NCBI GenBank assembly: GCA_012728725.1 | Contig: JAAYEM010000056.1 | Location: 1 to 40,625, forward strand | Source: Tissierellia bacterium | GTDB lineage: Bacteria; Bacillota; Clostridia; Tissierellales; Tepidimicrobiaceae | Length of the DNA stretch: 40,625 nucleotides | Direction: 5' to 3' | Shown: positions 19,766 through 40,625 of the stretch, in pieces | How the letters are laid out: every line of letters begins with the position of its first letter | Position numbering within the stretch: the stretch's first letter is position 1 | The notes under the pieces: model-generated | What the model was told of the DNA's origin: nothing | The model's database searches: none | What the model saw: only the letters and a program-made list of their open reading frames with translations | Program-made: the position numbers and the translations under genes

Positions 19766-19808
19766 ATTCTACCAATATCATATTTGATAAATAAATTCTC
19801 AAATAGGC

Positions 19809-19827
19809 CCATATTCCAGGAATATGG
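19809..19827. promoter_or_regulatory. Perfect 9-1-9 palindrome upstream of cwlD
   Basis: CCATATTCC and GGAATATGG flank a single A. The site lies 40 bases before cwlD and could be an operator or a small hairpin. A separate 13-bp repeat (19802-19814 with 19902-19914) overlaps it. Confidence 0.55.
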
Positions 19828-19867
19828 ACTCAGCACTGGCAATATACTTCATATGAGGAGGAATGCC

Positions 19868-20581
19868 ATGAGGATAATCTATATAAGTAAAAGAAAACTA
19901 TATATGGGCCTATTCTCTTTTTTTATTATTATTTTTTTGATGCTCCTGCTAGTATTAAGGGACAGGGCAGAACCTGTTTCCTATATTCCCATAACCAATA
20001 AAATAGTTGGAATAGATCCAGGCCATGGCGGAGTTGATCCTGGTGCTATAGGGGTGAGTGGAGTACAGGAGGCTGATATAAACCTTAAGATTGGTTTAAA
20101 GCTAAAAAGGTTGATAGAGCAAAGTGGAGGTATAGCAGTTATGACCAGAGATACTGATAAGGGTTTGTATACTGAAAGGTCTAAAAGTTTAAAGGAGAAA
20201 AAGACGGAGGACCTCCATAATAGAAAGAGGATAATAGAGGATGGGAAGTGTGACATATTTATAACAATTCACCTTAACAGTTTTGAGCAATCTAAATATT
20301 ATGGGGCCCAGACTTTCTATAGAAAAGGTTCCCAGGAAGGTATGAAATTAGCAAATTGTATTCAAGAAGAACTGAGGAAGGTATTGGATGAAAATAACCA
20401 TAGGCAACCCCAGGAAAGGGAGGATGTATTTCTACTAAACGAATTGGAGATACCCTCGGTATTGGTAGAATGTGGATTCTTATCGAATCCAAGGGAAGAA
20501 GGCCTGCTTGCTACAGATGAATATCAGGAAAGGATTGCATGGGCAATATTTACTGGAATTATTAAATATTTTGAAGAATAA
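19868..20581 (+). CDS. cwlD: N-acetylmuramoyl-L-alanine amidase CwlD
   Basis: CwlD removes peptide side chains from peptidoglycan during spore cortex formation, the first step to muramic lactam. The 237-residue protein has an N-terminal membrane segment (FSFFIIIFLMLLLVL) and one Amidase_3 domain. Zinc and catalytic positions are seen in DPGHGGVDPG, QEADINLK, TIHLNSF and VECGFLSN. I start at the ATG at 19868, six bases after AGGAGG; an in-frame ATG at 19784 would include that site and the palindrome. The gene indicates a spore-forming lineage. In Bacillus it is made under sporulation sigma factors; no clear sporulation promoter could be assigned here. Confidence 0.9.
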   Translation: MRIIYISKRKLYMGLFSFFIIIFLMLLLVLRDRAEPVSYIPITNKIVGIDPGHGGVDPGAIGVSGVQEADINLKIGLKLKRLIEQSGGIAVMTRDTDKGLYTERSKSLKEKKTEDLHNRKRIIEDGKCDIFITIHLNSFEQSKYYGAQTFYRKGSQEGMKLANCIQEELRKVLDENNHRQPQEREDVFLLNELEIPSVLVECGFLSNPREEGLLATDEYQERIAWAIFTGIIKYFEE

Positions 20582-20601: not shown

Positions 20602-20753
20602 TGTGGATAAGTCCTTGTGGATAAAATTTAAGTATGTGGATATAATTAATATTATGTAAACATGCCCTTTTATAAGGGTTTATTTCATGCCATTACATAT
20701 GTTTACATAAGTTATCCACTGTTGATTGTGGATAATGTGAATAAGGTGGATAA
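20602..20753 (+). other. Cluster of seven DnaA-box-like 9-mers
   Basis: Four 9-mers fit TGTGNATAA (reverse complement of the DnaA consensus TTATNCACA): 20602-20610, 20616-20624, 20727-20735 and 20736-20744. Three more differ by one base: 20635-20643 (TGTGGATAT), 20712-20720 (opposite strand, AGTGGATAA) and 20745-20753 (GGTGGATAA). The last three plus-strand boxes are contiguous, giving a 27-base array in register. An AT-rich tract (20768-20812) follows. It resembles an origin sub-region or a DnaA-titration or regulatory site, although no dnaA gene is in the window. Confidence 0.8.
20652..20710. repeat. 12-bp inverted repeat between the DnaA-box groups
   Basis: TTATGTAAACAT (20652-20663) is exactly complementary to ATGTTTACATAA (20699-20710), with 35 bases between. 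A second small stem, CCCTT/AAGGG (20665-20678), lies inside. It separates the two groups of DnaA-like boxes. Confidence 0.8.
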
Positions 20754-20828: not shown

Positions 20829-20857
20829 TTGAATTATTTTTCCATATCTAGTATAAT
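20829..20857 (+). promoter_or_regulatory. Sigma-A promoter of the glycine cleavage operon
   Basis: TTGAAT (20829-20834) and a perfect TATAAT (20852-20857) are 17 bases apart. A TTGACA at 20806-20811 lies upstream but lacks a good -10. The 115-base leader has a 9-bp stem (CAAAAATCC 20875-20883 with GGATTTTTG 20913-20921). It does not show glycine-riboswitch sequence blocks. Confidence 0.75.
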
Positions 20858-20972
20858 TAACTCGATAACATTTTCAAAAATCCTTAATTATTTATATTTT
20901 GTTTTAATAAAGGGATTTTTGGGGTAATATATAGTATGTGTTGGATTATAAAAATTAGGAAGGAGTGGTTAA

Positions 20973-22070
20973 ATGGTGGTTAAGAAAACTCCGCTTTATG
21001 ATGAGCACGTAAAGCTTGGAGGAAAGATAGTGGAATATGCAGGGTGGTTCCTTCCAGTACAGTATGAAGGTTTAATACCAGAACACGAAGCCGTAAGAAA
21101 TGCAGCTGGACTATTTGATGTATCCCACATGGGAGAAATATTTGTTAAGGGTAAGGATGCACTGGCATACTTACAGTACTTACTGACCAATGATATTGCC
21201 TCAATTGAAAACAATCAAATAATATACACATTCATGTGTTATCCTGATGGTGGGGTAGTAGATGATTTTTTAGTATATAAGTATGACGATGAAGAATATC
21301 TGCTTGTAGTTAATGCGGCCAATACTGAAAAGGACTTCAAGTGGATGATTGACAACAAAAAAGACTTCAATATCATTATTGAGAACCAATCAGATCAGAT
21401 AGGGGAAGTAGCATTACAAGGGCCCAAATCAGAAGAAATATTGCAAAAGCTTACCGATACAGACTTATCCAAAATTAAACCATTTTATTTTGATAGAAAT
21501 GTAAATATTTTAGGAGTTGAGTGCTTAGTTTCCCGTACAGGCTATACTGGAGAGGATGGATTTGAAGTATATGCTCCAAAGGATGATATAGTAAAGGTCT
21601 GGAATGGGATATTAGAAGCAGGCAAAGAGTATGGCATTAAACCCTGCGGATTGGGATGTAGGGATACTTTAAGATTTGAAGCAGCAATGCCATTGTATGG
21701 AAACGAAATTTCAGAAGATATTACTCCATTAGAAGGTGGACTTAAATTCTTTGTTAAGTTTGAAAAGGAAGAAGACTTCATTGGAAAAGAAGCCTTGAAA
21801 AAGCAATGGGATGAAGGATTAACTAGGAAGCTTGTTGGATTTGAATTACTTGGAAGGGGTATACCAAGAGAAGGATATGATGTATATAAGGATGGTAAAA
21901 AAATAGGCCATGTAACTACTGGTTACATGTCACCAACCCTTAAGAAGAGTATTGGAAATGCTTTAATAGATGTAAAGGAAGCCGAATTAGGCAATGAAGT
22001 GGATATAATGATAAGGAATAAGCCGGTAAAGGCTAAAATAATTAGCAGAAAATTCTTAAAAAATAAATAA
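20973..22070 (+). CDS. gcvT: Glycine cleavage system T protein (aminomethyltransferase)
   Basis: GcvT releases ammonia from the aminomethyl-lipoyl group on GcvH and transfers the one-carbon unit to tetrahydrofolate. The 365-residue protein has the N-terminal [34 protein letters not shown], the [14 protein letters not shown] block and [20 protein letters not shown], all conserved. The ATG follows AAGGAGTGG. It opens a five-gene operon encoding the whole complex, so the strain can oxidise glycine or, in reverse, make it. Confidence 0.97.
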
Positions 22071-36942: not shown

Positions 36943-38745
36943 CTATCCTAAAATCTCCCTACTTTTTTGCTCTATAAACTGGTTGGTATACAATTTATAA
37001 TAATATCCCTTTTTCCTTATTAAATCTTTATGGGAGCCTTCTTCAACTATTTTTCCATCCCTTATCACCAGTATCCTGTCTGCATTTTTAATGGTGGAAA
37101 GCCTGTGGGCTATTACAAAGCTGGTTCTACCTTCTAATACCTTATCTATTGCTTTTTGGATTATACTTTCTGTTTTAGTATCTATGGAGGAGGTGGCTTC
37201 ATCTAGTACAAAAATTTTAGGCTTTCTGACTATAGCCCGGGCAAAAGAGATCAACTGTTTTTGACCAGTAGACAAGAGGCTGCCCCCTTCTCCTACATGG
37301 GTATCATATCCTTTTTCCAATCCCATAATAAATTCATGACAGTTTACCAATTTACAAGCTTCAATTATATCTTGATCTGTAGCTTCCAAATTACCATATC
37401 TTATATTTTCCTTAATAGTGCCGCTGAATAGATGGGGAGTTTGTAGCACATAGCCTAAATTTTGTTGGATCCAGGCTTGAGGCATTTCCTTATAATCAAT
37501 TCCATCTATTAGTATTTTTCCTGAATTGGGTTCATAGAATCTACATAGCAAGTTTACAATTGTACTCTTTCCAGATCCAGTTTCTCCAACCAGGGCTATG
37601 GTTTCTCCCGCCCTAACCTTTAAATTAAAGTTTTCTAGTACCCTTTCCCCTTCCCTATAGGCAAAGCTTACATCTTTAAATTCAATTTCACCCTTTATAT
37701 CTGGCCAAGCTTCCACTTTTGGATTGAAAAAGTCACCATATTTTTCAACCACCTTTTCATCATCTGTTATGGTTAATGGTTGATTTATAAGGGAAAAGAC
37801 CCGCTCAGCTGAAGCACGGGCAGATTGCATTTCGGAAAATATGATGGCCAAATGCCTTATGGGTTCAAAAAATTGCATGGTATATGAAATAAAGGCTACT
37901 AAGGTACCATAGGAAAGGGTCCCCATAACTACCTTCCTACCACCAAAGTTTAAAGTAAGGGCAGTGCCTATACTACCTAATACCAGTGTTATAGGAATAT
38001 ATAAAGAAGAAATAATAGTTGATCTTATAGAGGCTTCTTTCATCTCTGATGTCAATAAACTAAACTCTTCTAAATTAATATCCTCCCTGACCAAGGTTTT
38101 AGTCGTTTTTGCCCCGGAGATATCTTCATTGTAGGCAGCGGTAATTCTGGAATTTATTTTCCTTACCTCCCTTTGGGAATTAAGTATCCTTTTTTGAAAA
38201 TATATGCTTACTAGGGCCAAAGGGGGAACAATGATTATAGTCAGCAGAGCCAGTTTAGAATCTAATCTAAACATGGCAATAATAATGGCCATCATCATGG
38301 CAATTCCCCAGGAAAGGTCCACCAGGCCCCAGGATATGATTTCACTAATCCTATTTATATCTGAGGTCATTCTAGCCATAAGCCAGCCTACAGCCTTGTT
38401 ATCATAATAGGATAAGGGTAGTATTTGAAGCTTTTCAAATCCCTTTTTCCTTATATCATAGGCCATGCGGGTTTCTATTTTTCCTGCCAGGACTAAAAAT
38501 AGATATACATTTATACTTTGGATGATTACAATAGAGAAGAATATAAAAGCAAACCTGTCTATACCTGTCCTGCTACCCTTTACAACAAAATTGTCTATAA
38601 CATGCTTTGTAAATAAAGGGAAAACTGAATCTATAACCCCTACCACAATCATAACCAGTGAAAGGAAAAAGAATTGCTTCTTATAGGGTTTTATAAACTG
38701 TATAAGCTCCTTCCAAATACTCAAGCTATCACCACCATTAGGCAT
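36943..38745 (-). CDS. ABC exporter half-transporter (second gene of pair)
   Basis: A 600-residue exporter half with an N-terminal six-helix membrane domain and a C-terminal ATPase. Motifs are Walker A GETGSGKST, signature LSTGQKQL (the usual second glycine is Thr), Walker B KIFVLDEATSSID with the catalytic Glu intact, and switch histidine IAHRLSTI. The annotated ATG overlaps the upstream gene by 8 bases but has no ribosome binding site. A TTG at 38724 (LSIWKELIQF) follows GGTGGTGAT and may be the real start. The substrate (drug, peptide or lipid) is unknown. Confidence 0.92.
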   Translation of the reverse strand: MPNGGDSLSIWKELIQFIKPYKKQFFFLSLVMIVVGVIDSVFPLFTKHVIDNFVVKGSRTGIDRFAFIFFSIVIIQSINVYLFLVLAGKIETRMAYDIRKKGFEKLQILPLSYYDNKAVGWLMARMTSDINRISEIISWGLVDLSWGIAMMMAIIIAMFRLDSKLALLTIIIVPPLALVSIYFQKRILNSQREVRKINSRITAAYNEDISGAKTTKTLVREDINLEEFSLLTSEMKEASIRSTIISSLYIPITLVLGSIGTALTLNFGGRKVVMGTLSYGTLVAFISYTMQFFEPIRHLAIIFSEMQSARASAERVFSLINQPLTITDDEKVVEKYGDFFNPKVEAWPDIKGEIEFKDVSFAYREGERVLENFNLKVRAGETIALVGETGSGKSTIVNLLCRFYEPNSGKILIDGIDYKEMPQAWIQQNLGYVLQTPHLFSGTIKENIRYGNLEATDQDIIEACKLVNCHEFIMGLEKGYDTHVGEGGSLLSTGQKQLISFARAIVRKPKIFVLDEATSSIDTKTESIIQKAIDKVLEGRTSFVIAHRLSTIKNADRILVIRDGKIVEEGSHKDLIRKKGYYYKLYTNQFIEQKSREILG

Positions 38746-40543
38746 TTAATTCTATATATTTATCTAGATCATCTATAGAGTTTTGTATCTCATATATACG
38801 TTTGTATAATCCCTCCTCTTCTATTAATTCATTATGGCTACCCATTTGAACTATTTTACCCTTATCCAGTACCAATATGGTATCTGCTTCTGCTACAGTG
38901 GATATCCTATGGGATATAATGATGGTAGTGGATTTATTTTTCCTATTCTTTAGAGCCTTCCTTATGGCTATATCCGTTTCCGTATCTACAGCCGATAAAG
39001 AATCATCAAATATTACAATGGGACTTTCGTTGATTATGGTTCTAGCTATAGCAATCCTTTGTTTTTGGCCTCCAGATAGGGAAACTCCCCTTTCCCCTAT
39101 TAAAGTGTCATATCCTTTGTCAAAGGATTTTATATCCTCATGTATCCTTGCTACTTTAGCCGATTCATATACCCTTCTATCCTCTATGGTTGGATCTGCC
39201 AGTTTAATATTCTCCCTTATGGTTTTAGCAAATAGGAAGGGCTCTTGTAATACTATGCCTACATTTTTTCTAATCCAGGCCTTATCTATTGCTTTTAATT
39301 CAGTTCCATCGATGAGGATGGAACCCTTCTGATAATCATATAGTCTAGTTAACAAATGTACTAAAGAACTTTTTCCAGAACCTGTAGGACCTATAATGGC
39401 TACTGTACTACCAGCCCTTATTGAAAAAGAGATATTATTTAGCACAGGCTTATTCTTCTCATACTCAAAGTATACATTTTTGAATTCTATATTTCCCTCA
39501 ATCCTGGGTTTTAAATGATTTTCCTCCAATATCTCTATAGGCTCATTTAATATCTCTTCTATACGATTTATAGAAACCAGGGCCTTGCCCATATCCGTCA
39601 ATGTCCTACCTAGCTGCCTAATAGGCCATAAAAGCATGCTTACGTAACTATTAAAGGCAACCAAGGTACCTAATGAAATGTGGCCTTGCACAGCCCACAT
39701 ACCCCCAACTATCAATACCAGGCCTATTTGGATAAAACATAAAAAGTCTGAAATCCCCCAGTACAATCCCAGGAGCTTAATCAGTTTATAGGTTTTATTC
39801 ATATAATCTTTATTCTTACTGTCAAATTTTTCAATCTCATATTTCTGCCTTGCAAAGGCTTTTACCACCCTAATCCCGGTTAAATTTTCTTGAAGGATTG
39901 TGGTAAGCCTTGCTTCAGCTTCATCGGAAGCTTCAAAGGCCTTTTTTACCTTTGTGAAAAAAATAAATGCAAAAGCAAATATTATTGGCATAGTAACCAT
40001 GGAAACCAATGCCATTTTTACATTAATGCTCAACATAACATAGGAAATAAATAAAAACATGAATAAAGAACTGGCTATCTCCATTAACTGAACGGATAAG
40101 AACCTTCTTATAGTTTCCACATCGGAAGTACACCTCTGGATAAGATCCCCTGTTTCAGATTTTACATGGTATTCATAGGGAAGCCTTTGTATATGATCAT
40201 ACAGGGAATCCCTAATCCTTTTGATGGTACTTTCAGTAGCCTTGCTAGCTAAAGCCCCTTTAAAGTATAAAAATACCCCTCTTATAATTGTTACAAGAAT
40301 TAGTAAAAGACCAATAATCCAAATATTTTCCCTTAAATAATCTTTACCCCCTAAATAGTCTATTGTTTTTGTTACTACAATTGCATTTGGTGCTTGATCC
40401 CCAATAATGGAGTCTATAGTAGTCCTGATGATAAGTGGAGTTAATATGGTACAGATTTGAGAAAGGATTACTGATATCATCCCTAATAGATATATTTTTT
40501 TAAAACCTTCCATAAATTTAAATATCTTATATAGCTCCTTCAT
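38738..40543 (-). CDS. ABC exporter half-transporter (first gene of pair)
   Basis: A 601-residue exporter half with the same layout. It has Walker A GPTGSGKSS, signature LSGGQKQR and switch histidine IISHRISTV, but Walker B reads IVIFDDSLSAVD, with Asp where the catalytic Glu is expected. This fits the degenerate partner of a heterodimeric exporter such as TM287/288, LmrCD or BmrCD. I start at the ATG at 40543, just after GGGGAGGAG; a TTG three bases further upstream crowds that site. A possible promoter (TTTACC-16-TATTAT on the minus strand) lies near 40565-40592. Confidence 0.92.
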   Translation of the reverse strand: MKELYKIFKFMEGFKKIYLLGMISVILSQICTILTPLIIRTTIDSIIGDQAPNAIVVTKTIDYLGGKDYLRENIWIIGLLLILVTIIRGVFLYFKGALASKATESTIKRIRDSLYDHIQRLPYEYHVKSETGDLIQRCTSDVETIRRFLSVQLMEIASSLFMFLFISYVMLSINVKMALVSMVTMPIIFAFAFIFFTKVKKAFEASDEAEARLTTILQENLTGIRVVKAFARQKYEIEKFDSKNKDYMNKTYKLIKLLGLYWGISDFLCFIQIGLVLIVGGMWAVQGHISLGTLVAFNSYVSMLLWPIRQLGRTLTDMGKALVSINRIEEILNEPIEILEENHLKPRIEGNIEFKNVYFEYEKNKPVLNNISFSIRAGSTVAIIGPTGSGKSSLVHLLTRLYDYQKGSILIDGTELKAIDKAWIRKNVGIVLQEPFLFAKTIRENIKLADPTIEDRRVYESAKVARIHEDIKSFDKGYDTLIGERGVSLSGGQKQRIAIARTIINESPIVIFDDSLSAVDTETDIAIRKALKNRKNKSTTIIISHRISTVAEADTILVLDKGKIVQMGSHNELIEEEGLYKRIYEIQNSIDDLDKYIELNA

Positions 40544-40625
40544 CAAACTCCTCCCCTATTATGAGTAAATAATAAACCATAGGCTTAGACGGTAAAGTCT
40601 ATAATCCTATAGTTTTTGAATATAA

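Follow-up and report, generated by a model that had tools for sequence, protein, structure and literature searches.

DnaA-box clusters located outside oriC were reportedly described in Bacillus subtilis by Okumura et al. 2012, a work known through reviews. The deletion of six such clusters in this organism leads to early initiation, and the re-insertion of one of them at various sites gives partial relief (PMC5295017, PMC13220808). DARS sites, at which DnaA is recharged, are to date known from Escherichia coli and related bacteria. In E. coli, box I of the DARS core is inverted relative to boxes II and III, the DARS1 and DARS2 cores share the same box spacing, and the head-to-head contact between boxes I and II is the hallmark of these cores (PMC5742627, PMC8682772). 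The E. coli datA site requires, as reviewed elsewhere, bending by IHF. According to a 2026 review, B. subtilis lacks both datA and DARS, and whether this organism has regulators that keep ATP-DnaA and ADP-DnaA in balance is not known (PMC13220808); likewise, we found no report of a DARS site in Bacillota in the open-access literature. Here we describe a cluster of DnaA boxes next to cwlD in the order Tissierellales, which is very probably a DnaA-control locus of some kind.

The window, that is, the whole stretch of 40,625 nucleotides that was analysed, belongs to a 2.07 Mb genome in 108 contigs (G000), a Tissierellales relative of Schnuerera ultunensis. The cluster is located at 20602–20753, 3′ of the stop codon of the anchor gene cwlD (19784–20581, plus strand; TIGR02883 above cut-off) and upstream of gcvT (20973–22070, plus strand; TIGR00528 above cut-off), and this cwlD-gcvT gap lies about 20 kb downstream of an S10 ribosomal leader. 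A box scan of the window confirmed seven DnaA boxes, as counted in the preliminary description, with starts at 20602, 20616, 20635, 20712 (opposite strand), 20727, 20736 and 20745. Four of these are exact matches to TTATNCACA (20602, 20616, 20727 and 20736) and three carry one mismatch. The three plus-strand boxes at 20727–20753, previously noted to lie end to end, indeed read TGTGGATAA, TGTGAATAA and GGTGGATAA with zero gap between them. When the window was dinucleotide-shuffled 300 times, the densest 152 bp contained at most five boxes (at most four in 299 of the 300), and the Poisson chance of a seven-box cluster at a given start is 2.5e-9. The box total of the whole window is not elevated (59 observed versus about 54 expected), and hence it is the clustering that constitutes the signal.

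The element is made up of an upstream three-box group and an inverted-plus-tandem core. Boxes 1 (20602–20610, plus strand) and 2 (20616–20624, plus strand), both exact copies of TGTGGATAA and retained in relatives, are separated by 4–5 bp and followed after about 10 bp by the co-directional box 3 (20635–20643, plus strand; TGTGGATAT, one mismatch), the TGTGGA core of which is nearly invariant. Measured start to start, box 3 and the inverted core box I are 73–77 bp apart in 37 of 38 parsed copies. This step contains a 9-bp inverted repeat that, like the fixed spacing, goes beyond the preliminary description. Its left arm, TTATGTAAA (20652–20660, plus strand), is complementary to the highly conserved right arm, TTTACATAA (20702–20710, plus strand), which ends one base before box I, and the spacer of about 40 bp between the arms (20661–20701) drifts in sequence, with little information per column, while its length is held. 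Pairing of the two arms across relatives exceeded that in all 2000 shuffles, which ignore relatedness, and one clear double change was seen (L108). The TTATGTAAA arm is possibly a weak DnaA box or a site for another protein. Core box I (TTATCCACT; 20712–20720, minus strand) is followed by 6 bp (20721–20726) of constant length and variable sequence and then by two or three abutting boxes, namely box II (20727–20735, plus strand; an exact TGTGGATAA retained in relatives), box III (20736–20744, plus strand; TGTGAATAA, an exact TTATTCACA) and a third tandem box (20745–20753, plus strand; GGTGGATAA, one mismatch) that is less conserved and absent from some families. The 6-bp (I–II) and 0-bp (II–III) spacings were found in 38 of 38 parsed copies. 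In the same copies, base 9 of box I is T in 27, C in eight and G in three, and never the consensus A; this base was unconstrained in the search patterns, although the sequence profile was trained on such copies. Across relatives, the boxes and TTTACATAAG beside the inverted box have a high information content per column and the spacers a low one, the lengths of the spacers being kept despite their variable sequence.

The preliminary description had let its reading stand or fall with conservation of the boxes in close relatives, and this expectation was strongly borne out. Clusters with the same layout are present in at least 41 genomes from 11 families of the order, directly 3′ of cwlD in most, though as the genomes are related the copies are not independent samples. 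A strict core pattern matched 27 of 249 order genomes, compared with zero matches for a reversed control pattern, and occurred once per genome with the exception of G016, which has two copies on the same contig. With a profile trained on 28 copies, the element was identified in another 14 genomes (E ≤ 3e-11), of which 12 had not contributed to the training set. In two genomes (G054 and G029), genes now separate the element from cwlD, the element being retained about 1.7 kb farther along, and several cwlD-bearing families of the order lack the element. Beyond the order, a two-mismatch core pattern, a variable-spacing pattern and the profile returned scattered weak matches and nothing comparable, with profile scores of at most 31.6 bits versus at least 45 bits for true copies; of the loci checked, seven are located at dnaA. 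A class-level match near a CwlD-like gene (L194) was rejected, having a different spacing, an A at base 9 and a position on the opposite side of the gene.

We hypothesize that DnaA binds the seven predicted boxes and, since the box spacing is fixed, assembles into one defined nucleoprotein complex, in which the upstream three-box group would probably be brought to the core by bending over the 73–77 bp step. The locus would act on DnaA and not on a neighbouring gene, and would most likely keep DnaA off oriC and thereby restrain initiation, like the B. subtilis box clusters. We consider it reasonably likely that the net effect of the element is DnaA sequestration; this is our best single guess, a DARS-like activity appearing less likely. 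In seven relatives with both loci on one contig the element is 0.38–0.95 Mb away from dnaA, which corresponds to 14.5–25.2% of the chromosome (G008, G017, G033, G055, G221, G241 and G248; genome sizes were rounded for five of the seven and one assembly consists of two contigs). Owing to this distance of 14–25% of the chromosome, the replication fork would duplicate the locus some time after initiation. The chromosome position fits a locus working on DnaA, although synteny with the ribosomal region could also fix the distance.

A second cluster, consisting of five DnaA boxes, is present in the same genome between tsaD (gcp) and a ydiF-like ABC-F gene (C61:3917–4070; L176 518–670). Of the 17 genomes of the order that were examined, 16 contain 4–10 boxes in the 320 bp after tsaD; in three Bacilli the number is 5–10, and in B. 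subtilis strong DnaA binding has been reported 'downstream of gcp; downstream of ydiF' (PMC4447404), that is, at the same address. In each of the seven genomes for which positions were measured, the tsaD and cwlD clusters are located on opposite chromosome arms, 14–26% from dnaA. The tsaD cluster also retains much of its spacing, and hence the cwlD element is distinguished not by a regular geometry as such but by its inverted core, in which one box is off-consensus. The tsaD-ydiF region offers a second, separate locus for the question of DnaA control, at an address common to B. subtilis. The genome-wide cluster count took in only clusters with an exact TGTGGATAA. On contig C47, an hpf-like gene is preceded by a further group of six to seven DnaA-like boxes, almost all of which point the same way (L010 1427–1591).

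Simple sequestration needs neither rigid spacing nor an off-consensus inverted box, and a more specific activity is therefore possible. By analogy with E. coli, the element could be a DARS-like site, at which ADP-DnaA would assemble head to head on the inverted and the adjoining box, lose ADP and be reloaded with ATP, so that initiation is promoted; we regard this as unlikely, though worth entertaining. In E. coli MG1655, the core in the bioD-uvrB intergenic region reads TTATCCACT-5-TGTGGATAA-3-TGTGTATTA and that in the rppH-mutH intergenic region TTATTCACC-5-TGTGGATAG-3-TGTGAAGAA, these cores having been picked by the published description and not by published coordinates, with one such set per region. 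The core of the element reads TTATCCACT-6-TGTGGATAA-0-TGTGAATAA and thus has the box order, the orientation and the off-consensus box I in common with the E. coli cores, in which base 9 of box I (T and C) likewise departs from the A that is missing from all 38 copies, but its spacing differs. Also, E. coli DARS2 is located 20.6% of the chromosome from oriC, compared with 14–25% for the element. The DnaA residues D269, used at DARS1, and L290, used at DARS2, are conserved, but they are conserved anyway for general DnaA function. B. subtilis DnaA is described as undergoing rapid nucleotide exchange, and none of its known regulators works through the nucleotide state (PMC4447404); a DARS would be less needed where nucleotide exchange is this quick. 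That the element represents the first DnaA-reactivating site of the DARS type in Bacillota, of independent or ancestral origin, is a slightly more doubtful proposition still. If true, Gram-positive bacteria would also steer the ATP/ADP state of DnaA via a chromosomal site. Being compact, present in single copy across the order and built around a core with the DARS box order, the element provides a 150-bp, directly assayable target for the question of ATP/ADP balance.

It had also been proposed that DnaA could link glycine/one-carbon metabolism to the cell cycle; the element would then serve as an operator of gcvT. In the family to which the window belongs, and in some other families, gcvT does follow the element, but the downstream gene is not constant in relatives; elsewhere the element persists beside a redox gene, a membrane protein gene, a BioY-like gene (all named from their translations) or a convergent gene. 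The likely gcv promoter, TTGAAT-N17-TATAAT (20829–20857, plus strand; read from the sequence), is located outside the element, with its −35 region about 75 bp past the last box, and its TATAAT is conserved among gcvT-bearing relatives. As the downstream gene varies, gcv regulation is not supported as the conserved role, and the operator reading is improbable; a local effect on gcv in this genome is conceivable. Besides this TATAAT, the gcvT leader (20838–20972) contains a conserved GGGTAACATATAATATG stretch and the imperfect repeat AAATCCTT/AAGGATTTT; it has no Rfam match and is possibly a leader RNA or attenuator.

Quite improbable, too, is a datA-like site that would speed up ATP hydrolysis by DnaA: the element does have multiple boxes and a constant step at which bending could occur, but an inverted-plus-tandem core has been described for DARS and not for datA, and IHF is reportedly absent from B. 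subtilis (PMC13220808). Boxes I and II are able to pair as RNA, which could suggest a hairpin or terminator after cwlD; however, this was rejected as very improbable, since covariation is absent (zero compensatory changes in 15 predicted pairs), no T run follows the hairpin and there is no Rfam match at its position. The other role considered in the preliminary description, that of part of an unusual origin, was not supported. The dnaA gene is located on contig C57 and has 13 boxes upstream and four downstream, corresponding to a normal bipartite oriC; since the genome has this ordinary oriC at dnaA, on a contig other than that of the element, the element is not oriC. Given the beyond-chance clustering and the separate oriC, the proposal of a DnaA-box cluster outside oriC was upheld. 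Despite its dense boxes and AT-rich flank, a remnant or secondary replication origin is extremely improbable and was rejected, in view of the complete oriC at dnaA and a GC skew that, from the start of the window to about 36 kb, is positive to either side of the cluster and does not switch at the site. Two long minus-strand open reading frames (36943–40546) lie at the sign change of the GC skew, the only strand switch of long open reading frames in the window.

Returning to DnaA sequestration and to the described systems, the element shares with the bipartite oriC of Bacillota the clustered occurrence of the same box motif, but it does not adjoin dnaA and lacks the origin neighbours rpmH and dnaN, as well as a GC-skew switch. 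With datA of E. coli, also a chromosomal DnaA-box cluster, which lowers DnaA activity, it would have the proposed role in common, but the box layout is different and IHF dependence is a feature of datA. Like E. coli DARS1 and DARS2, the element is intergenic, has fixed spacing and is located at an intermediate distance from oriC, and its box I is opposite to boxes II and III; however, it has an additional upstream three-box group, IHF and Fis sites are a feature of E. coli DARS2, and because the core spacing is 6 and 0 bp and not 5 and 3 bp, the element is not classed as a DARS. None of the eight strongest DnaA-binding regions of B. subtilis (Table 1, PMC4447404) is located at cwlD, and an order-level conserved internal geometry of the B. 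subtilis clusters was not found described in the literature consulted. Even if the element does no more than sequester DnaA, it would still show that selection can strictly maintain the geometry of Gram-positive clusters outside oriC, something not predicted by simple titration. Like these B. subtilis clusters, whose target is initiation and not a single gene, the element consists of several intergenic boxes away from dnaA in a Gram-positive genome.
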